64,000 nt of DNA from Herbiconiux sp. SALV-R1. GTDB taxonomy: Bacteria > Actinomycetota > Actinomycetes > Actinomycetales > Microbacteriaceae. The notes under the pieces are model-generated. The model worked only from the letters and a program-made list of their open reading frames with translations, searched no databases and was not told the origin of the DNA. The position numbers and the translations under genes were made by a program. Below, one piece after another: positions 46,636 to 55,922 of the stretch; the first letter of the stretch is position 1, and each line of letters starts with the position of its first letter. Where the stretch lies: assembly GCF_013113715.1 (NCBI RefSeq), contig NZ_CP053344.1:124001-188000 (forward strand), read 5' to 3'.

Positions 46636-46725
46636 GGTACCGTGTCCGAGCGGCCGAAGGTGCAACTCTCGAAAAGTTGTGTGGGGGAGACTCCACCGTG
46701 GGTTCAAATCCCACCGGTACCGCCA
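46636..46725 (+). tRNA. tRNA-Ser(CGA)
   Basis: Type II tRNA with a long variable arm. Acceptor GGTACCG (46636-46642) pairs with CGGTACC (46715-46721), discriminator G46722, encoded CCA 46723-46725. Anticodon loop CTCGAAA gives CGA. A hairpin terminator follows at once. Confidence 0.95.
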
Positions 46726-46762: not shown

Positions 46763-46914
46763 TCATTCCCGGATGCTGCGCCTGCGCGTCAGGCATCCCC
46801 CCGGTGCCTCGTCGGCCGGATCGAGCCTGAGCTGCTTCCTCCAGGTGCCCCGAATGCGCCGAGTGATCAGCCGTACTCGCTGATCGGGTTAGGACGCTTG
46901 AGCGCGGTACGACG

Positions 46915-46940
46915 AGTTCAGTATAGTTCAGTACAGTTTG
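46915..46940 (+). promoter_or_regulatory. Operator/promoter copy 1 (AGTTCAGTACAGT)
   Basis: Two 10-bp units, AGTTCAGTAT (46915-46924) and AGTTCAGTAC (46925-46934), then AGTTTG. TTGAGC at 46898-46903 and TATAGT at 46922-46927 with an 18-bp spacer make a likely promoter, so the repeat covers the -10 box. The core starts 41 bases before the start codon of the SnoaL-like gene. Confidence 0.6.
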
Positions 46941-46965
46941 TTCGCTCTCGATGAGGAGACCTGTA

Positions 46966-47358
46966 ATGACCGACCGTGCTGAAGCCAACAAGGCTGTCGT
47001 CCTGAAAGTGATGGAGCTGCTGATCGACCCGGAGGTGTCGGAGCAGGCTCGCCAGTACCTCACCCCCGAGTACATCCAGCACAATCCCGAGATCGAGTCG
47101 GGCGCCGACGGCATCATCGCGTTCACGAAGACCGAGGAGGCGCGCGTGGCACGGGAGAACATGCGGCCGGCACCCGAGCCGCCCGTGCTCGTCGCCGAGG
47201 GCGACAAGGTCGTGATGATGATCTCGCGCGACCTGCCCGACCCCGAGAACCCCGGGCAGACTTACCGCGCCTATTGGTTCGACATGTGGCGCGTGGAAGA
47301 CGGCCGCCTGGCGGAGCATTGGGATGCCGTGACCAAGACGCCCGGCACGGGCCACTGA
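46966..47358 (+). CDS. SnoaL-like protein 1
   Basis: 130 residues, an NTF2/SnoaL-type cone fold by pattern (NKAVVLKVMELL, ARQYLTPEYIQHNPEIESGADGI, then FDMWRVEDGRLAEHWD). Members are hydrolases, isomerases or polyketide cyclases with varied substrates. The late WRVEDGRLAEHWD strand is typical of the predicted polyketide-cyclase SnoaL subgroup. GAGGAG precedes the ATG. It has its own repeat-bearing promoter and opens the accessory module. Confidence 0.8.
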   Translation: MTDRAEANKAVVLKVMELLIDPEVSEQARQYLTPEYIQHNPEIESGADGIIAFTKTEEARVARENMRPAPEPPVLVAEGDKVVMMISRDLPDPENPGQTYRAYWFDMWRVEDGRLAEHWDAVTKTPGTGH

Positions 47359-47395
47359 CTGGCCCTCGAGGGGTCTTGTGATCAGCTGGCTCGTC

Positions 47396-47417
47396 CAGTA
47401 CAGTTCAGTACAGTTTG
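47396..47417 (+). promoter_or_regulatory. Operator/promoter copy 2 (AGTTCAGTACAGT)
   Basis: CAGTAC followed by AGTTCAGTACAGTTTG (47402-47417), identical over 16 bases to copy 1. TTGTGA (47376-47381), 17-bp spacer, TACAGT (47399-47404) could be the promoter. The core begins 67 bases before the binding-protein gene. Confidence 0.6.
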
Positions 47418-47468
47418 GTCGTCGAAGATGACCAGTGACCGGGCACAGTGGCCCACTGAGGAGATTCA

Positions 47469-48434
47469 ATGAAGAACTCGACCCGACTCGCCGCCGTCGC
47501 GATGAGCGGCGCCGCGATGCTTTTCGTGCTCGCCGGCTGCTCCTCCTCCGAGCCGTCGTCGACGTCGTCGGCAGATGACGGATCGGCGGCGGGCGCCACC
47601 GGCACGCTGGCGTACTCGCCGACGAGCGTGCAGATCCCCGTTCTCGTGCAGGTGGGCGACGCCGTCAAGTCCCTCGCCACAGACGACGGCTTGGGTTTCA
47701 ACCAGATCGACGGCGCCTTCGATCCGACCACGCAGATCCAGCAGGTCACCCAGGCCATCGACAACGGCAGCGTGCAGGCGGCCTGGGTCGTGCCGGTCGC
47801 CGGCCCGGCCACGGCGCCGCTCATCGAGCACGCTCAGGAGAAGGGCGTGCCGATCCTGGTGCAGACGACGCCGACGGATGTGGGCCTCGACGGTGCACAG
47901 CCCGGTGTGGTCTTCCAGGGCCCCAACTTCGCATCGTTCGGCGAAGCCCTCGGCAAGGAGGTGACCAGCTGCATCGACGACAAAGGTCTGAAGGATGCGA
48001 AGGCGATCCTCCTCACCGGTCCCGACACCCTCCCGGGTACCGGAGACACCAAGGCCGCCGCTCTCGACGCTATCGGCGACTCGGTCGACATCGTCGCGGA
48101 GGCCCAGGTGGCCGACGTCGCAGCGGCACAGACGCAGACGCAGCAGCTGCTCGGCGCCAACCCCGACGCGAACGTCGTCATCTCGTTGCTCGACGAGGGG
48201 GCACTCGGAGCGGTCAACGCCTACAAGACGGCGGGCGCGACCGCAGACTGTGTCATCCTCGGCGGCGGTGGGCCCGACGCGCTCGCCGCTCAGAAGGCCG
48301 GCGACATCACGACGATCGTCGCGTGGGACTTCGTGGGTGCCGTGCCCGAGGGATGGGCGGCGCTGCAGAAGATCATCGCCGACCCGAAGGCCGAGGGCGA
48401 CCTCCTCGACATCCCCTTCACCATCACGAAGTAG
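47469..48434 (+). CDS. ABC importer substrate-binding lipoprotein (ribose/periplasmic type)
   Basis: 321 residues. Signal peptide with lipobox LAGC (Cys at 24), Ser-rich linker, then a type I periplasmic-binding fold of the RbsB/Peripla_BP_4 kind: DNGSVQAAWVVPVAGPATAPLIE, later DANVVISLLDEGALGAVNAYK and the GGGGPDAL segment. It catches the ligand outside the membrane for the permease and ATPase that follow. Sugar-type by family; the actual ligand may be another polar compound. Confidence 0.9.
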   Translation: MKNSTRLAAVAMSGAAMLFVLAGCSSSEPSSTSSADDGSAAGATGTLAYSPTSVQIPVLVQVGDAVKSLATDDGLGFNQIDGAFDPTTQIQQVTQAIDNGSVQAAWVVPVAGPATAPLIEHAQEKGVPILVQTTPTDVGLDGAQPGVVFQGPNFASFGEALGKEVTSCIDDKGLKDAKAILLTGPDTLPGTGDTKAAALDAIGDSVDIVAEAQVADVAAAQTQTQQLLGANPDANVVISLLDEGALGAVNAYKTAGATADCVILGGGGPDALAAQKAGDITTIVAWDFVGAVPEGWAALQKIIADPKAEGDLLDIPFTITK

Positions 48435-48439
48435 TCGAC

Positions 48440-49483
48440 ATGTCGATCATTGCGCAACGAACGGTGCACGAGGGGGGAGCCGCTCTCCGGCTTCCCCCTC
48501 GGGTGGCGGCTCTGATCTTCGTCAGGGAACAGGGGCTCCTCGTGCTCTGGCTCCTGCTCATCGTCATCTTCGCCATCACGGGGGCGCCGCACTTCTTCAC
48601 CCTCGGCACCGGAGTCAACGTGCTCAATGCCGCAGCGATCACCTCCATCTTCGCCGCCGGCCTCGGCATCGGTGTGATGACCGGGGTGCTCGACCTCTCG
48701 GTTCCCGGCACGGCGGCCGTCGTCGGCGTGAGTGTCGCTCTCCTCATCAAGGCGGGCGCGCCGGTGTGGCTCGCCCTGGTCGTCGGTCTCGTCATCGGCG
48801 CCGTCGTCGGCGTGGTCAACGGCCTCATCGCCATCCGGGGCTTCGATCCCCTGATCGTCACCATCGGCATGCTCAGCGTGCTGAGCGGCACGGCCCTCCT
48901 CCTCGCGGGCGGCTACGACATCACCGGCATGACCTCACTCGCCTTCCTCGGCACCGAGCGGTACCTCGAGATCCCCGCGCCGGTCTACATTTCGGTCGTG
49001 CTGTTCGTCGTCCTCACCGTCATGCTGAAGTTCACCCGGGTGGGCACCAGGCTCCTCGCCGTCGGCGGCAATGCCGAGGGGGCACGCCGGGTCGGCATCC
49101 GCACGGAGTTCTACCGCGTGCTCGGCTTCGTGATCTCGGCCGTGTGCGCCGCCATCGGCGGGATCGTCAACACCGCGTACATCTCGATCGCGCAACCGGC
49201 GGCGAGCACCGGTGTGATCTTCACCGCCCTCACGGCCGTGGCCCTCGCGGGCGTCCCCTTCGTCGGCGGGCGGGGGAGCCTGCCGAAGGTCTTCCTCGGC
49301 ACCGTCGTGCTCGCCACCATCAGCGCGGGCCTTCTCATCTCCGGCGTGCCGACCTTCTGGGCGACGATCGCGACCGGGGTGCTCCTCATCGGCGCACTCG
49401 CCCTCAACAAGGGAACCGGCGAGTCGATCTCTCGATTGCTGCTGTCGAACGGCGGCATGGCAGGAAAGCGGAGGCCATCATGA
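48440..49483 (+). CDS. ABC importer permease (RbsC-like)
   Basis: 347 residues, eight to ten membrane spans. BPD_transp_2 family: VLDLSVPGTAAVVGVSVALL, NGLIAIRGFDPLIVTIGMLSVLSG and KFTRVGTRLLAVGGNAEGARRVGI (the EAA-like cytoplasmic loop) are typical of RbsC/XylH. It starts five bases after the binding-protein stop, and overlaps the ATPase gene by four bases. Confidence 0.93.
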   Translation: MSIIAQRTVHEGGAALRLPPRVAALIFVREQGLLVLWLLLIVIFAITGAPHFFTLGTGVNVLNAAAITSIFAAGLGIGVMTGVLDLSVPGTAAVVGVSVALLIKAGAPVWLALVVGLVIGAVVGVVNGLIAIRGFDPLIVTIGMLSVLSGTALLLAGGYDITGMTSLAFLGTERYLEIPAPVYISVVLFVVLTVMLKFTRVGTRLLAVGGNAEGARRVGIRTEFYRVLGFVISAVCAAIGGIVNTAYISIAQPAASTGVIFTALTAVALAGVPFVGGRGSLPKVFLGTVVLATISAGLLISGVPTFWATIATGVLLIGALALNKGTGESISRLLLSNGGMAGKRRPS

Positions 49484-50259
49484 CCGGGCCGGCGTTCGAA
49501 CTCGACGACATCTGCGTGCACTACGGGTTCCTCCGCGCTCTCGACGGTGTCAGCCTGCGTGTGGCACCCGGGGAGGTGGTGGCCCTGCTCGGCGACAACG
49601 GCGCCGGCAAGTCCACCCTGCTCAAGGTGATGTCGGGCGCGCATCGCCCCACCACGGGAACGATCCGGGTGAACGGCATAGAGCGCGCCTTCCGGGCACC
49701 GCGCGACGCCGGTGACGCCGGCGTGCAGATGGTCTATCAAGATCTCGCGCTCGTCGACGCGATGGACATCGCGACCAACCTCTCGCTCGGCCGCGAGCCC
49801 CTGCGGCGCGGGGTGCTCGGCTGGCTCGGATTCATCGACCGGCGGGCGATGCGCACCGAGTCGCAGTCCGAGCTCGACGCGCTCGGGGTGCGCACGGCTC
49901 CCGTGACCAGGCCCGTGGAGATGCTGTCGGGCGGGCAGCGACAGGTCGTCGCGATCGCTCGCGCCGCCGCCCGCCTCGGAGACGGCGGGGTGCTGCTGAT
50001 GGACGAGCCGACCGCCGCGCTGGGGCACGAGCAGACGGAACTCGTCGAAGAGCTCGTCGTCCGCCTGTCGGCGCGGGGGACCGCGATCGTCGTCGTCACC
50101 CACAACCTGCCGTTCGCTCAGGCGGTGGCGCACCGCACCGTCGTGCTCAACCGCGGGCGCAAGGTCGCAGATATCGCGACGGCTGAGACCGACAAAGACC
50201 AGATCGTCTCGTGGATCACGGGCGCCGGGGTGCAGGAGGGCTTCGGTGCGCGGTTGTGA
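49480..50259 (+). CDS. ABC importer ATPase, single domain
   Basis: 259 residues with one nucleotide-binding domain: Walker A GDNGAGKST (38-46), signature LSGGQRQ (about 148), Walker B VLLMDEPTAAL. Ribose-type importers mostly use a tandem ATPase (RbsA, about 500 residues); the single-domain form, as in fructose-type FrcA, must act as a homodimer. ATGA overlap with the permease. Confidence 0.93.
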   Translation: MTGPAFELDDICVHYGFLRALDGVSLRVAPGEVVALLGDNGAGKSTLLKVMSGAHRPTTGTIRVNGIERAFRAPRDAGDAGVQMVYQDLALVDAMDIATNLSLGREPLRRGVLGWLGFIDRRAMRTESQSELDALGVRTAPVTRPVEMLSGGQRQVVAIARAAARLGDGGVLLMDEPTAALGHEQTELVEELVVRLSARGTAIVVVTHNLPFAQAVAHRTVVLNRGRKVADIATAETDKDQIVSWITGAGVQEGFGARL

Positions 50260-50291
50260 GACGGACGCGCTCGTGACCCCTCCAGCCGACA

Positions 50292-50312
50292 ATAGTCCAG
50301 TTCAGTACAGTA
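50292..50312 (+). promoter_or_regulatory. Operator/promoter copy 3 (AGTTCAGTACAGT)
   Basis: AGTTCAGTACAGT at 50299-50311, followed by ACATATACGG; 58 bases before the second SnoaL-like gene. The 13-mer is exactly that of copies 1 and 2, while flanks differ. A clear -35 box is not seen. Confidence 0.55.
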
Positions 50313-50356
50313 CATATACGGCGGGCCCGCCCGCCTTTCGATGAGGAGAACACACC

Positions 50357-50893
50357 ATGTCAGATCCCGTCTACTACGACTCCATCTCGGTGGAAGACCG
50401 ACTCAAGATCCAGGAGCTGTTCGCCCGCTACGCGTGGGCCCTCGACACCGGCGACACCGAGAACTTCCTCGCCTGCTTCACCGACGACGGATGGCTGTCG
50501 TCGGTCGGCGGTGAGCGCAGAGTGGGGCACGAAGCCATCGCGAACGAGGTCTACCACCTCTGGTACGGGCGCAAGAACGCGTTCTTCGGCCGCCTGCACC
50601 TGCTGAGCCACCTCATCCTCACCCCCGAGGGAGACGACGTGCGGGCGAAGGCGTTCTTCCACATCCCCCAGTACGCCGTCGACTACATGAACACCTTCGT
50701 GTTCGGCATCGGGTACTGGGACAACCTGCTGACGAAGATCGACGGGCGCTGGTACTTCAAGGAGGTGCACCCCGTGCCCTTCGTCACCGCAGACCATATC
50801 CCGTGGGTCGGCGAGAAGCCCACGGGCGACGTCGAGGTGCTGCCGATGGACCACACCATCGACAAGCACGTCTTCACCGGCGAGCAGAAGTGA
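50357..50893 (+). CDS. SnoaL-like protein 2 (SnoaL_4 type)
   Basis: 178 residues. NTF2-like fold: DRLKIQELFARYAWALDTGDTENFLACFTDDG is the standard SnoaL_4 opening, followed by RRVGHEAIANEVYHLWYG and a late KIDGRWYFKEVHPVPF strand. Such proteins include dehydratases, isomerases and dioxygenase small subunits. GAGGAGA precedes the ATG, as in SnoaL-like gene 1. It begins the oxidative part of the module. Confidence 0.85.
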   Translation: MSDPVYYDSISVEDRLKIQELFARYAWALDTGDTENFLACFTDDGWLSSVGGERRVGHEAIANEVYHLWYGRKNAFFGRLHLLSHLILTPEGDDVRAKAFFHIPQYAVDYMNTFVFGIGYWDNLLTKIDGRWYFKEVHPVPFVTADHIPWVGEKPTGDVEVLPMDHTIDKHVFTGEQK

Positions 50894-50924
50894 CCCGCCC
50901 CGCCGAGCACCGAGCGCACGACCT

Positions 50925-51743
50925 GTGACCATGATCGACACGACGGCCGGGCTCTCCGAGACCGCAGACAGGTTCCTGCGCGGCCTCGGGGGCTCCGGCC
51001 TGCCGGCGGGCGAGGGTTTCCGGTTCACGGAGAACGGCGTCGACGTGACGTCGGCCGGAGGCCGTCTCGCTCGTGCGCAGGCGTTCTCGGGGCTTCAGAC
51101 CTTCGTCGACTCCCGCCGCGGGCAGGCGGTGGTGGTCGGGCTCGCGGCGTTCGCCGACGGTCGCGACGCGTTCGCCCTGCGACTGCACGTCGACGGCGAT
51201 CGCGTCGACCAGGCCGAGGCGATCGTGAGCACCGGGCGCGCCGGGTTCTTCAACGCCGTCGACGAGCTCGCCGAGCCGGACGTCATCTACCGGGCGCCGG
51301 TTCCCGAACAGCGCCGGAGCAGTGGCGAGGAGCTGGTGCGCATCGCCGACAGCTACTGGGAGGCGATGGAGTCGGGAGACGGCAGCATCGTCCCCGTCGG
51401 GTATCGCTGCGACTCCTTCCACAACGGCAAGAAGGTGACGAATAACCTCGAGCTGCTGCTGTCGCCCGACAAGGCGGTGCACACCGTGGAGTCGATCATC
51501 GCCGGCACACGCCCCGCCCGTCCCCTGGTCGCCGACCGGCGCTACCCGATCGTCGACACCGAGCTCGGCGTCGTGGTGAGCATCGTCGTCGCCGACTTCC
51601 ACCCCATCCCGAACGGTCGCCCCGACAGCGGTTCGTTCTACATGGCGGTCGTCTTCAAGATCGTCGACCACCGCATCCGGATCTTCGACGAGATCCGCGA
51701 GATCCTGCCACTCGGAACGACGAGTGGCTGGCAAGGCGCATAA
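50925..51743 (+). CDS. Conserved protein of unknown function (DUF8021-like)
   Basis: 272 residues from GTG. Two parts: an N-terminal half (about 1-120) and a C-terminal NTF2-like half in which SYWEAMESGDGSIVPVGYRCDSFHNGK and late FYMAVVFKIVDHRIRIFDEIREILP stand out. The second half resembles DUF8021, found with actinobacterial and fungal catabolic genes; this is from memory and not certain. No signal peptide. It is 31 bases after SnoaL-like 2 and ten before the monooxygenase. Confidence 0.65.
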   Translation: MTMIDTTAGLSETADRFLRGLGGSGLPAGEGFRFTENGVDVTSAGGRLARAQAFSGLQTFVDSRRGQAVVVGLAAFADGRDAFALRLHVDGDRVDQAEAIVSTGRAGFFNAVDELAEPDVIYRAPVPEQRRSSGEELVRIADSYWEAMESGDGSIVPVGYRCDSFHNGKKVTNNLELLLSPDKAVHTVESIIAGTRPARPLVADRRYPIVDTELGVVVSIVVADFHPIPNGRPDSGSFYMAVVFKIVDHRIRIFDEIREILPLGTTSGWQGA

Positions 51744-51752
51744 GGAGCAACG

Positions 51753-53042
51753 ATGTCCACCACCTCTCTTCACGAGTCGCCGCTGTCGACCGAGACCGGC
51801 CGCCGCATCCGAGACGGCGTGCTCGCCCTCGTCCCCCAGATCAGGAAGGATGCGCGCGAGGGCGAGAAGCTCGGCTGTCTGCCCCCGACGACGCTGACGG
51901 CACTCGCCGAGCTCGACGTCTTCCGGCTGTCGCTGCCCGAGCGGTTCGGCGGACACGCGCTCGGCGCGCGCGACCTCGCCGAGGTCATCCTCGCGGTCGG
52001 CCGCGCCGACGGATCGGCCGGCTGGCAGACCATGATCTCGAGCGGATTCACTCGCGTCGTGCTGACCTTCCCCGACCAGGCGGTCGAGGAGATCTACTCC
52101 AGCACGCGCGACTGGGACGGTCCGGTCGTGGCGAGCGCGTCGCTGTTCTCCGACCGCATCCAGCACGCGACGAAGGTCGACGGCGGCTACGTCGTCAAGG
52201 CCGGCGGGAAATGGGGCTTCGGCAGCGGGAGCAAGCACGCCGCCTTCATGGTGGTGGGCGTCGGTGTGGAGCAACCCGACGGCGACTTCGATCGCATCGC
52301 CGTGCTCCTCGAGCGGGGTCAGTACGAGATCGTCGACGACTGGCACGTGATGGGCCTGTCGGGGTCGTCGAGCAACAGCGTGACCGTCACCGACGATGTG
52401 TTCATCCCCGAGCACCGTGTGCTGCCGCTCGCGGAGCTCACCGATCGTCTCGACGCCATCCACACCAAGTACGACGGCCTCGGGCTCTCGATGGACGCCA
52501 GGGGGCTCATGATCATCGTGTCGCTCGAGACGATGGGCATCGCCGTGGGCATGGCGGAGGGCGCGTTCGACTGCTTCCTCGAGCAGACCGCGAACAAGAA
52601 GCCGTTCAACCTCGATTACCCGTCGCTGCGGGAGACCCCGGCGACGCAGATCGTCGCGGGCAAGGCGCGGGCCATGATCAACGCCGCCCGCGCTCTGCTG
52701 CTCGCGGGCGCCGACGTCATCGACCGGAAGGCGCTCGCCGGAGAGTCGTTCAGTGTGGCCGAGGAGACCGCCTTGCAGATGGACTTCGTCTACGCAGGCA
52801 ATCTCGCCGGGCAAGCCATCGAGCAGATCCAGTTCGCGATCGGTTCGGCGACCGTGGCCCTCAGCAACCCCATTCAGCGCTACGCCCGTGACGTGAGGGT
52901 CGCCCTCACCCACGGCTCGAACCGTCTCGACCCCTCCGCGGAGCTCGCGGGCCGGGAGATTTTCGGCGTCTCGGCGTCGGCAGACGGGATGGCCGGGGTC
53001 CCCGGCGTGGGCAAAGCCAAAGAGCGCGTACTCGCGCAGTAA
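51753..53042 (+). CDS. Acyl-CoA-dehydrogenase-fold flavin monooxygenase
   Basis: 429 residues. The three parts of the fold are present: helical N-terminus (PERFGGHALGARDLAEVILAVGRADGSAGWQ), beta domain (GGKWGFGSGSKHAAFMVVG, HVMGLSGSSSNSVTVTDDVFIPEH) and helical C-terminus. The SGSKHA and GLSGSSSNSV words place it with group D two-component monooxygenases (HsaA, HpaB-like, DszC) and not true dehydrogenases, whose catalytic Glu is not evident. It would hydroxylate its substrate using reduced flavin from a reductase; no reductase gene is next to it. Confidence 0.85.
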   Translation: MSTTSLHESPLSTETGRRIRDGVLALVPQIRKDAREGEKLGCLPPTTLTALAELDVFRLSLPERFGGHALGARDLAEVILAVGRADGSAGWQTMISSGFTRVVLTFPDQAVEEIYSSTRDWDGPVVASASLFSDRIQHATKVDGGYVVKAGGKWGFGSGSKHAAFMVVGVGVEQPDGDFDRIAVLLERGQYEIVDDWHVMGLSGSSSNSVTVTDDVFIPEHRVLPLAELTDRLDAIHTKYDGLGLSMDARGLMIIVSLETMGIAVGMAEGAFDCFLEQTANKKPFNLDYPSLRETPATQIVAGKARAMINAARALLLAGADVIDRKALAGESFSVAEETALQMDFVYAGNLAGQAIEQIQFAIGSATVALSNPIQRYARDVRVALTHGSNRLDPSAELAGREIFGVSASADGMAGVPGVGKAKERVLAQ

Positions 53043-53059
53043 GGAGCAGGGAAGCTGTC

Positions 53060-53854
53060 ATGGAACTGACACTCGAGGGAAAGCGCGCGCTCGTCACGGG
53101 CAGCAGCTCAGGCATCGGCAGGGGCATCGCGCTCAGGTTGGCGGGGGAGGGCGCGACGGTGATCGTGCACGGGCGCAACGCCGACCGCAGCCGGGGGGTC
53201 GCCGACGAGATCACGGCCGCGGGCGGCGACGCGGAGGTCGTCACCGGAGACCTCACCTCCGCAGCCGAGACGGATGCGCTGCTCGACCAGGTGATCGCCG
53301 CGGGCGGTGCCGACATCCTCATCAACAACGCCGGCGGGCGGGCGGGCGGGTTCAGCCCGGAGCCGGTCTGGGAGACCAGCGCGGATCGCTGGCTCGCCAC
53401 CTACCAGCTCAACGTGCTGAGTGCGGTCGCCGTGACCCAGCGCCTCGTGCCCGGCATGCTCGAGCGGGGCTGGGGCCGCGTCATCCACGTCGCGAGCGCC
53501 GTCGCCCTGCACCAGCCGCCGGCGTTCGCCGACTACCAGGGGGCGAAAGCCGCCGAGATCAACTTCGCGCGCTCCCTCGCGCGGGGTCTCGGCGGGTCGG
53601 GTGTGACGGCGAACTCGATCAGCGTCGGCATCATCGCCACGCCGGACTCGGAGTCCGAGCTGCAGAGGGCGGCGGCGACGCTCGGAGCGAGCGACTGGCG
53701 CGACGTGGAGAAGGAGCTCGCCACCACGGTCTTCCGGCAGCAGGTGCCGCGCATCGGCCGGCCCGACGACATCGCGTGGGCGGTCGCCTACCTGGCGAGC
53801 CCCCGGGCCGACTTCGTCACCGGCACGAACATCGTCATCGACGCCGGTATCTGA
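53060..53854 (+). CDS. Short-chain dehydrogenase/reductase
   Basis: 264 residues. Cofactor motif TGSSSGIG (14-21), NNAGG, catalytic Y159 and K163 (YQGAK), and the C-terminal DFVTGTNIVIDAGI. HGRNADRS after the second strand favours NADP(H). It is 17 bases after the monooxygenase and likely oxidises or reduces the product of that step. A 14-bp hairpin follows. Confidence 0.92.
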   Translation: MELTLEGKRALVTGSSSGIGRGIALRLAGEGATVIVHGRNADRSRGVADEITAAGGDAEVVTGDLTSAAETDALLDQVIAAGGADILINNAGGRAGGFSPEPVWETSADRWLATYQLNVLSAVAVTQRLVPGMLERGWGRVIHVASAVALHQPPAFADYQGAKAAEINFARSLARGLGGSGVTANSISVGIIATPDSESELQRAAATLGASDWRDVEKELATTVFRQQVPRIGRPDDIAWAVAYLASPRADFVTGTNIVIDAGI

Positions 53855-53859
53855 AGCCT

Positions 53860-53901
53860 CCCCGGGAGCGCGTGCCGCTGGGGAGGTACGCGCTCCCGGG
53901 G
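53860..53901. terminator. 14-bp inverted repeat between SDR and TetR genes
   Basis: CCCCGGGAGCGCGT (53860-53873) and ACGCGCTCCCGGGG (53888-53901), perfect, 14-base loop. It lies six bases after the SDR stop and before the end of the leftward TetR gene, so it can serve both. Confidence 0.75.
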
Positions 53902-53950
53902 ACGGGTGCGCGCCCGGGGACGGATGCGCTATCGGGGATGGATGCGCTCC
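53897..53950. repeat. Three 18-bp tandem units across the TetR stop codon
   Basis: CGGGGACGGGTGCGCGCC, CGGGGACGGATGCGCTAT and CGGGGATGGATGCGCTCC in tandem. The middle unit holds the reverse stop codon (53929-53931). Confidence 0.8.
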
Positions 53951-54657
53951 GGCAGCCAGAGGTAGTCGGGGGCCGGCGGGGGAGCACCCAGCTCCTCGCC
54001 GCCGGCGGCGACGACCGACGAGGGCCGGATGCTCAGCAGGAGCATGTGGGCGACCCAGGCGGCGTGCCTGGTCACCAGCTCGTCGTCGGGGTGGAAGTCT
54101 TTGTCGAGGAGCGCGTCGATCTCGAAGCTCGCCACCGCGATGCGGGCGAACAGGGCCGCGTGTGCGCGTACGTCACGCACCTCGTAGCCGAGCCGCACCG
54201 CATCTTCACGCAGGATGTCGGCGACGACGTCGACGACGTGCGGGGCGCCCGGCACCAGCCGGGTGGTGAGGTCCGACCGGTTGTTGGCCTCCAGGATCAT
54301 CACCCGGTGGAACGCGAGGAAGGTCTCGGAGGTGAGCGACTCGACGAGCAGTCGCGCCAGCGAGACGAGCTTGTCGAAGGTGCTCAGCGACTCGTCGACG
54401 TGCAGGCGGTCGAAGTCGACGTCGAGCAGCGTGACGGCACGGTCGGCCATCTCCCGGTAGAGGGCGAGCTTGTCGCCGAAGTGGGCGTAGACGGTCGTCT
54501 TCGACACCCCGGCACGGGCGGCGACGGCGTCCATCGACGTCATCTCGTAGCCCTGGGTGTTGAACAGCTCGACCGAGGCCGCGAGGATGGCCTCCCGTTT
54601 GGAGGCGCGCCCGCGTGCGCGGCGGCGGGGCGGGGCATCCGACGGCTCTGTGCTCAC
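53929..54657 (-). CDS. TetR family transcriptional regulator
   Basis: 242 residues from GTG with AGGAGG six bases upstream. HTH at about 38-57 (TSMDAVAARAGVSKTTVYAHFGDK), and a ligand-binding half of about 170 residues. The C-terminal part (ILREDAVRLGYEVRDVRAHAALF) is that of the TetR_C_7/AefR-like group. As the only regulator in the module it is the best candidate for binding the 13-mer found three times upstream, although that motif is a direct repeat and no copy lies before its own gene. Confidence 0.9.
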   Translation of the reverse strand: MSTEPSDAPPRRRARGRASKREAILAASVELFNTQGYEMTSMDAVAARAGVSKTTVYAHFGDKLALYREMADRAVTLLDVDFDRLHVDESLSTFDKLVSLARLLVESLTSETFLAFHRVMILEANNRSDLTTRLVPGAPHVVDVVADILREDAVRLGYEVRDVRAHAALFARIAVASFEIDALLDKDFHPDDELVTRHAAWVAHMLLLSIRPSSVVAAGGEELGAPPPAPDYLWLPERIHPR

Positions 54658-54792
54658 CGGCGGCCTCCTCTCATGCACGCAACGATTTCTCTCATCATGA
54701 CAGAGGCGGCATGTCTGGCCCGCGCAGCAACGCCGCGCCGAGCGAGATTTCTGTACCCGGAGTGCGGATTACGGCTTCCGTTCGGTGATGGC

Positions 54793-55227
54793 CTACGGGA
54801 TCGTGATCGTGAAGGGATAGCTCTGCGACTGCGCGCCGCTCGCGCTGACCGTCGCCGTGACCACGCCCGTGGTGCCGGAGGGGGCGCGGAGCACGACGGT
54901 GCAGTTGCCGACGTTGCTGCCCGACGCCACCTGGGCGTTGGCGACGTAGACGTTGCCCGAGCGGGCCCAGGCCGAGGTGAGCCACCCACCGAAGGTGAAG
55001 GTGCCGAGGTCGAGGGTGACGGTGAGCTGCGCCGGGCCCGCTGTGGTGTTGGTGGCGTTCCAGGTCCAGTTCACCGAGTTCGCGAACTGCTGGTACAGGC
55101 CCACCTGGGTGACGGTTCCGGCCGGCAGCATCGAGGCTGCGGCGACCGGGGCCGCGACGGCCACGGCGACGACCGGCACCGACCAGGCGCCGGCGCGGAT
55201 GAGCTCTCTGCGTGTGACTGTCCCCAT
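54793..55227 (-). CDS. Small exported protein with Tat-type signal, unknown function
   Basis: 144 residues from ATG 55227. Signal VTRRELIRAGAWSVPVVAVA with twin Arg, ending PVAAAS; then a beta-rich domain (PAQLTVTLDLGTFTFGGWLT, GVVTATVSASGAQSQSYPFT) with one Cys. It shares signal style and size with 34564-34983, pointing to a paralogous group. Role unknown. Confidence 0.7.
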   Translation of the reverse strand: MGTVTRRELIRAGAWSVPVVAVAVAAPVAAASMLPAGTVTQVGLYQQFANSVNWTWNATNTTAGPAQLTVTLDLGTFTFGGWLTSAWARSGNVYVANAQVASGSNVGNCTVVLRAPSGTTGVVTATVSASGAQSQSYPFTITIP

Positions 55228-55343
55228 GCGACGACGGTAACCCATCGCATCGCCCCGAAGCGGGCCGGACGGCGGATCCTAGTAGCGGATGCGAGGATCC
55301 TCTCACCGACGGGGCGGGTGGCCGAGGGATACAGTGGGGCGTC

Positions 55344-55922
55344 ATGACCATCATGCGATCACTCGTGTACTTCGTGGCCGTGAGCGCCGACGGGTTCATT
55401 GCCGAGAGCGACGGCACCTTCGATCGGTTCCCCGTCGAGGGGCCGCACATCGACGCGCTGGTGGCCGAGCATCCGGAGACCCTTCCCGGATTCGTGCGCG
55501 ACGCCCTCGGACTGAGCGGCGCCGGCCGCTTCGACACCGTGCTCGAGGGGCGTGCCACGCACCAGGTGGGGCTCGGCGCGGGCGTCGGCGACGCCTACCC
55601 GCACCTGCGCCACCTCGTGTTCTCCTCGACGCTCGACCGCGCGGCGGTCGCCGACGGCATCGAGCTCGTGCGCGGCGACGCCCTCGCACGCGTGCGCGAA
55701 CTGAAGGCCGAACCGGGCGGCGACCTCTGGCTCTGCGGCGGTGGCCGGCTCGCGAGCGAGCTCCTCCCCGAGATCGACGAGCTGTTGCTCAAGGTGAACC
55801 CCGTGCTCTTCGGCACCGGCATCCCCCTCTTCGCCCGGCCGATGGATGCGCGCCTCCACCTCACCGACACCCGCCCCTTCCCGAACGGCGTCATCTGGAA
55901 CACCTACCGCCTGCACCACTGA
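55344..55922 (+). CDS. DHFR/RibD C-terminal-like reductase 1
   Basis: 192 residues. RibD_C fold: YFVAVSADGFIAESDGTFDRFP at the start, LEGRATHQVG, DLWLCGGGRLASELLPEIDELLLKVNPVLFGTGIPLF. Such proteins bind NADPH, but most stand-alone members have no known substrate. ATG 55353 is another possible start. It is convergent with the small HTH gene. Confidence 0.85.
   Translation: MTIMRSLVYFVAVSADGFIAESDGTFDRFPVEGPHIDALVAEHPETLPGFVRDALGLSGAGRFDTVLEGRATHQVGLGAGVGDAYPHLRHLVFSSTLDRAAVADGIELVRGDALARVRELKAEPGGDLWLCGGGRLASELLPEIDELLLKVNPVLFGTGIPLFARPMDARLHLTDTRPFPNGVIWNTYRLHH

Follow-up and report, generated by a model that had tools for sequence, protein, structure and literature searches.

Tandem AGTNC repeats over three promoters of a putative catabolic island in Herbiconiux sp. 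SALV-R1: predicted operators of a local TetR regulon

A 64,000-nucleotide stretch of the Herbiconiux sp. SALV-R1 genome (hereafter the window; positions below are its own) holds a putative catabolic island in which three transcription units are each preceded by a short tandem array of the pentamer AGTNC, every array overlapping a -10 box. The sequences of the arrays, their uniqueness, their position, their conservation in a relative from another family and their co-transfer with a tetR gene are established. We think it quite probable that the TetR-family product of 53929-54657 uses the arrays as its operators; it would block the three island promoters and respond to a compound of the pathway as inducer. 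From sequence we infer the parts that TetR would play, as binder and as repressor, and the chemical class of the inducer.

Arrays and the promoters they overlap

The preliminary description of this DNA had reported three copies of one 13-mer, AGTTCAGTACAGT. They stand on the plus strand before a SnoaL_2 gene, an ABC importer operon and an operon encoding a SnoaL_4 protein, a flavin-dependent oxygenase and a short-chain dehydrogenase/reductase (SDR). A search of the window found exact matches at 46925, 47402 and 50299, and they lie, as described, 41, 67 and 58 bp before the ATG codons at 46966, 47469 and 50357. Copies 1 and 2 are indeed identical over 16 bases. The 10-bp direct repeat that had been described over the -10 box does overlap TATAGT or TACAGT, but its unit length was wrong: the real unit is 5 bp, and the 10 bp are two AGTNC. 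Behind the 13-mer, then, is the pentamer AGTNC, repeated in tandem in arrays of three to five units upstream of each of the three transcription units. The arrays and promoters are as follows.

46915..46937, + strand: array 1, AGTTC-AGTAT-AGTTC-AGTAC-AGT; overlaps the -10 box TATAGT (46922-46927)
47392..47414, + strand: array 2, (C)GTCC-AGTAC-AGTTC-AGTAC-AGT; overlaps the -10 box TACAGT (47399-47404); orthologous array in the relative described below at L044 15979-15957, - strand
50294..50313, + strand: array 3, AGTCC-AGTTC-AGTAC-AGTAC; overlaps the probable -10 box TCCAGT (50296-50301); orthologous array at L044 13062-13035, - strand
46898..46927, + strand: promoter of the SnoaL_2 gene, TTGAGC-N18-TATAGT; recovered independently by a consensus scan
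47376..47404, + strand: promoter of the importer operon, TTGTGA-N17-TACAGT
50273..50301, + strand: probable promoter of the SnoaL_4 operon, GTGACC-N17-TCCAGT; weaker than the other two

With their -10-like hexamers in register, the three sequences are TTGAGC-N18-TATAGT-TCAGTACAGT, TTGTGA-N17-TACAGT-TCAGTACAGT and GTGACC-N17-TCCAGT-TCAGTACAGT. At all three the array begins on the -10 box and extends downstream past the expected start. The five sites of both genomes, including the two of the relative, have the same layout: a -35 element, 17 bp (18 once), a -10 box made by the array itself, TNCAGT (TATAGT at site 1), and then TCAGTNCAGT. The consensus -35 TTGACA is present in two of the five, and an unaided consensus scanner recovers one, site 1; a -35 match of at least four of six letters is found at 2% of places in the window.

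When up to three mismatches were allowed, the window gave 13 matches against 2.95 expected, a number that none of 100 shuffles reached. Across the whole genome (4,522,361 bp, both strands) the pattern AGTNCAGTNCAGT has five exact matches, all inside the three array sites, against an expectation from base composition of 0.49, and the reversed control pattern has none. The genome-wide count of the exact 13-mer, a check that had been proposed, returned three copies (0.011 expected) and none beyond the three sites. The 18-mer AGTNCAGTNCAGTNCAGT, with up to one mismatch, likewise finds the three array sites only. The pattern was absent from all 15 same-genus genomes searched. A repeat search over the island yielded mostly coding-sequence noise, and its family D4 corresponds to the AGTNC arrays.

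Runs of AGTNC do occur in other genomes, among them uniform AGTGC or AGTTC runs, and the six inspected (L011, L012, L017, L019, L033 and L039) all lay in unrelated contexts. One, in the unrelated genome G155 (L017 1501-1518, - strand), is a perfect AGTCCAGTTCAGTACAGT 18-mer that precedes a large gene by about 80 bp. We rejected such runs as further sites because their contexts are unrelated and the 18-mer is within chance over 200 genomes.

Conservation of arrays and regulator in a second family

As a probe for carriers of the module we used the 270-aa protein encoded at 50931-51743, which has no Pfam family. G292, a genome from another family in this order, has the protein at 75% identity. 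Its region L044 contains nine genes in identical order, plus an inserted aldehyde dehydrogenase gene, with 70-89% protein identity, and the DNA identity to the window is 77-78% over 46970-54615. Comparison of the upstream regions in this relative, another check that had been proposed, found arrays kept at the same place in two promoters: TTGACA-N17-TACAGT-TCAGTCCAGTACAGTTC precedes the SnoaL_4 gene and TTGACA-N17-TACAGT-TCAGTGCAGTTCAGT the binding-protein gene. Exact AGTNCAGTNCAGT occurs in the 5.6-Mb G292 genome in these two intact arrays only. Between the orthologous arrays of the two genomes the AGT.C positions are kept 30/30 and the N positions have changed in 3/6, and the surrounding intergenic DNA has diverged and aligns poorly; read from this alignment, the pattern is that of a site bound by a protein in which each unit leaves one position free.

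Within the syntenic block common to both carriers (46970-54615), TetR is the only DNA-binding gene. Its helix-turn-helix domain matches TetR_N (PF00440) with 60.4 bits against a cut-off of 24. The two TetR proteins are 76% identical, and their recognition region, GVSKTTVYAHFGDK, is identical. The ligand-binding family TetR_C_7 (PF14246) is matched below its cut-off by the window protein (E 4.7e-4) and above it by the G292 protein (E 4.1e-8). A single-sequence structure model of TetR was mostly helical and too poor to use (pLDDT 51).

Upstream of tetR the same half-site appears in inverted form. In G292 it forms a 23-bp dyad, GAACTGCACT-CCG-AGTCCAGTAC, and a second dyad, GAACTGGACT-CTA-AGTACAGTTC, overlaps the SnoaL_4 promoter array; the dyad pattern GAACTGNACT-N3-AGTNCAGTNC is found at two places in G292 against 0.01 expected by chance. 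The window holds no 10-N3-10 dyad within three mismatches. In both genomes the tetR start is preceded, at a distance of about 92 bp, by the shorter inverted form, GNACT-N3-AGTNC. It is perfect in G292 and degenerate in the window, where about 0.3% of random places in a comparable span score equally well.

53929..54657, - strand: TetR-family regulator (PF00440), sole DNA-binding gene of the island
54751..54765, - strand: putative degenerate inverted operator upstream of tetR, GCACT-CCG-GGTAC-AG; G292 has GCACT-CCG-AGTCC-AG at the same distance

Carriers of the module are few. Among 396 genomes of the order we found the window's genome and G292 only, with none further in G292's family; neither the TetR probe over 395 genomes of the class nor the 270-aa protein probe over 396 genomes of the phylum added another. 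The family search returned only a paralogous enzyme locus without an array (L078 in G040). In plasmids the 270-aa protein found distant homologues only, and TetR and the permease had no match. Caulobacter sp. UNC279MFTsu5.1 (L048) has related genes for the oxygenase, SDR, tandem-SnoaL and SnoaL_2 proteins (53-65% identity), accompanied by genes for an MFS-like transporter and a GntR regulator; the stretch examined has neither arrays nor a relative of the island TetR or importer. The paralogous enzyme loci in the window's genome, G292 and G040 have no arrays either. On these comparisons, therefore, the arrays accompany the island TetR and the module, not the enzymes as such.

The window's genome has a second tandem-SnoaL gene (L042, G000:C1:4201061-4201804; 50% identity), also without arrays, which adjoins another HsaA-like oxygenase gene and an IclR-like gene; similar loci are present in G292 and G040.

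A predicted local repressor and the competing explanations

These sequence data strongly support a dedicated regulon, because the arrays recur nowhere else in either of two genomes, keep their position in the relative, and lie on an island that has a single DNA-binding gene. The sites occur only at neighbouring genes and are carried with the regulator, as in a local regulon. The preliminary description had already suggested a dedicated regulon, and neither of the two results that it said would refute the idea, many other copies of the motif or its loss from a relative that keeps the gene order, was found. Without inducer, TetR dimers would occupy the AGTNC array, which reaches from the -10 box to about 15 bp beyond it, and RNA polymerase would be blocked sterically at -10/+1 of the three promoters. 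The units repressed in this way would be the SnoaL_2 gene, the importer operon and the SnoaL_4/tandem-SnoaL/monooxygenase/SDR operon. TetR would be released by a pathway substrate or intermediate, probably aromatic or polycyclic, that the ABC importer brings in, and it may autoregulate through the inverted half-site copy at its own promoter, well kept in G292 and weak in the window. The module enzymes and the G292 neighbourhood, which encodes enzymes related to 3-(3-hydroxyphenyl)propionate hydroxylase and like HpaD/catechol 2,3-dioxygenase and lignostilbene dioxygenase, suggest an aromatic substrate for the module.

Several observations weigh against this prediction. Site 3, with a poor -10 box (TCCAGT) and a poor -35 element, is the least convincing promoter. 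The third orthologous array in G292, at the SnoaL_2 gene, is degenerate (AGTAC-GGTCA-GGTGC-AGTTT, 12/15). The tetR site in the window is weak: 11/17 letters match, and a site as good turns up in about 5% of random 150-bp segments. Transcription of tetR runs towards the target operon and not away from it, a convergent arrangement that predicts the targets of TetR-family proteins less well (PMC3511530). Finally, the full module is present in two genomes only.

There are two ways in which TetR might read the arrays. Less probably than not, it would recognise a tandem lattice of 5 bp, or half a turn, with several dimers on alternating DNA faces over -10/+1; the unit would double as the -10 box, and the dyad would serve autoregulation. 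To a variant in which a single dimer binds an imperfect palindrome, GTNC-A-GTTC-A-GTNC (or GNACT-N3-AGTNC), and the direct-repeat appearance is a by-product, we give somewhat less than an even chance, a weight that overlaps with that of the TetR regulon itself, since TetR is the binder in both. Every array holds this pseudo-dyad because the pentamer contains GTNC, often as the palindrome GTAC. All five good arrays have GTTC as unit 3, with flanks of GTAC, GTAT, GTCC or GTGC, true 23-bp dyads of the same half-site are present in G292, and the TetR-type repressor AcnR uses the half-site CAGNAC/GTACTG (PMC2723105). However, even the best of the pseudo-dyads pair no more than 5-6 of 9 positions, most arrays run one or two units past the 14-bp core, and the dyad spacing in G292 (N3) is one base off the 5-bp lattice register. 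The earlier remark that the site is unlike the dyads of TetR proteins thus holds for the direct repeats but not for the GTNC/GTAC pseudo-dyad of every array, nor for the true dyads in G292.

The remaining explanations dispense with TetR. It is unlikely that the arrays bind a regulator encoded elsewhere, or are a host promoter or activator element, with TetR controlling something else. The convergent tetR gene, whose own window promoter has a degenerate copy only, would fit this idea, but arrays and TetR have moved as a set between two families, and neither genome has the exact array at any other place, neither of which a host-wide factor would predict. Moreover, the near-consensus TTGACA-N17-TACAGT promoters need no activator, and an element that overlaps -10/+1 is in the position of a repressor site. 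That the repeats act in the transcript, at the mRNA 5' end, rather than as DNA operators seems very improbable. The arrays do pass the likely start and so would be partly transcribed, yet part of each lies upstream of it, the inverted copies in G292 lie in the -35/-10 spacer and upstream of tetR, and the Rfam match is to a tRNA only. We give next to no weight to a neutral microsatellite expanded by slippage. Slippage does generate short tandem repeats, and uniform runs are present in other genomes; here, however, the units are non-identical, with N varying inside each array, the three arrays stand at the same place relative to -35/-10, and from one family to the other N changes but the A, G, T and C positions stay the same.

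It is common for a TetR repressor to act locally on the genes beside it, and in TetR/tetO two 15-bp palindromes form the operator (PMC3511530). The predicted system resembles such local repressors in its TetR_N domain (PF00440), its island-local regulator, its sites over promoters and its probable autoregulation; it differs in its convergent tetR and in having, instead of the clean dyads of TetR/tetO, tandem AGTNC direct repeats with a half-turn period. AcnR of Corynebacterium glutamicum, with the consensus CAGNACnnncGTACTG (PMC2723105), is likewise an actinobacterial TetR-type repressor, and its half-site CAGNAC fits CAGTAC, a frequent unit here; its half-sites, however, are inverted and convergent, whereas ours follow one another in tandem or diverge across N3. 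At E 1e-5 the PDB matches of the island TetR included no chain with the name AcnR. With the AefR-like regulators the comparison is through the TetR_C_7 match noted above, below cut-off for the window protein and above it for that of G292, and the AefR structure 3cdl is among the nearest, but similarity outside the DNA-binding domain is weak. QacR- and EthR-type proteins bind long operators co-operatively, which would account for a multi-unit operator with more than one dimer. Their operators are not known to be AGTNC arrays. In a limited literature search we found neither the 13-mer printed in a relevant setting nor a match for a tandem 5-bp direct-repeat array built into a -10 box or for a TetR protein with direct-repeat operators, and nothing on the gene set of the module.

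The type of circuit is thus ordinary, and an operator of half-turn direct repeats is unusual. It offers a compact, testable case of a short direct-repeat operator in a family whose operators are mainly known as dyads, together with a portable pair of promoter and operator in which a near-consensus promoter with its switch inside the -10 box moves with a catabolic island. It would also place in one regulon an uncharacterised island with a CUT2 importer, an HsaA-like oxygenase, four SnoaL/NTF2-like domains and an SDR; the inducer can therefore be sought by screening a single promoter.

The island and its genes

Besides tetR, the island comprises the following.

46785..55353, no strand: island; adjoins tRNA-Ser(cga) at 46636-46725; absent from the sibling genome G014
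46966..47358, + strand: SnoaL_2 protein gene, 130 aa (Pfam PF12680)
47469..48434, + strand: ABC importer substrate-binding lipoprotein, CUT2 type (Pfam PF13407)
48440..49483, + strand: ABC importer permease (Pfam PF02653)
49480..50259, + strand: ABC importer ATPase, single domain (Pfam PF00005)
50357..50893, + strand: SnoaL_4 protein gene (Pfam PF13577)
50931..51743, + strand: 270-aa protein; no Pfam or NCBIfam match; tandem NTF2/SnoaL-like fold suggested by a model
51753..53042, + strand: HsaA/HpaB-like flavin-dependent monooxygenase, acyl-CoA dehydrogenase fold (NF045629, E 1.2e-49, below cut-off)
53060..53854, + strand: SDR (profile matches)

In the sibling G014 the flanks are 89-90% identical; homology ends at 46784 and restarts at 55354, with about 475 unrelated bases between, and the siblings G004 and G009 also lack the island. 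The module thus stands directly 3' of a tRNA gene and is missing from siblings, as tRNA-gene islands do. Because it adjoins tRNA-Ser(cga), is absent from same-genus genomes and has 77-78% DNA identity to another family, we infer that it is an 8.5-kb catabolic island acquired by horizontal transfer. There is no integrase among the nine module genes, and no specific search for flanking repeats was made; Rfam gave no match except the tRNA.

For the monooxygenase, the score against the NCBIfam equivalog NF045629 was 169 bits where the cut-off is 450, so that by its profile score the product is related to HsaA and is not HsaA itself. The importer ATPase has a single domain of 259 aa, compared with the two fused domains (about 500 aa) of RbsA/AraG, the sugar CUT2 ATPases that it resembles.

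In G292 the module lies within a larger aromatic-catabolism region (L044 and L076, G292:C1:528000-566400) with genes for a hydroxylase, an extradiol dioxygenase, a lignostilbene-dioxygenase-like enzyme, a fumarylacetoacetate-hydrolase-like protein and an aldehyde dehydrogenase. In its low-confidence model (pLDDT 66) the 270-aa protein looks like the tandem NTF2/SnoaL domains of the epoxide hydrolase Lsd19. Homologues of this protein at about 50% identity are found in Streptomyces, Sphingomonas, Caulobacter and Robbsia, and in the loci checked they stand beside HsaA-like oxygenases.

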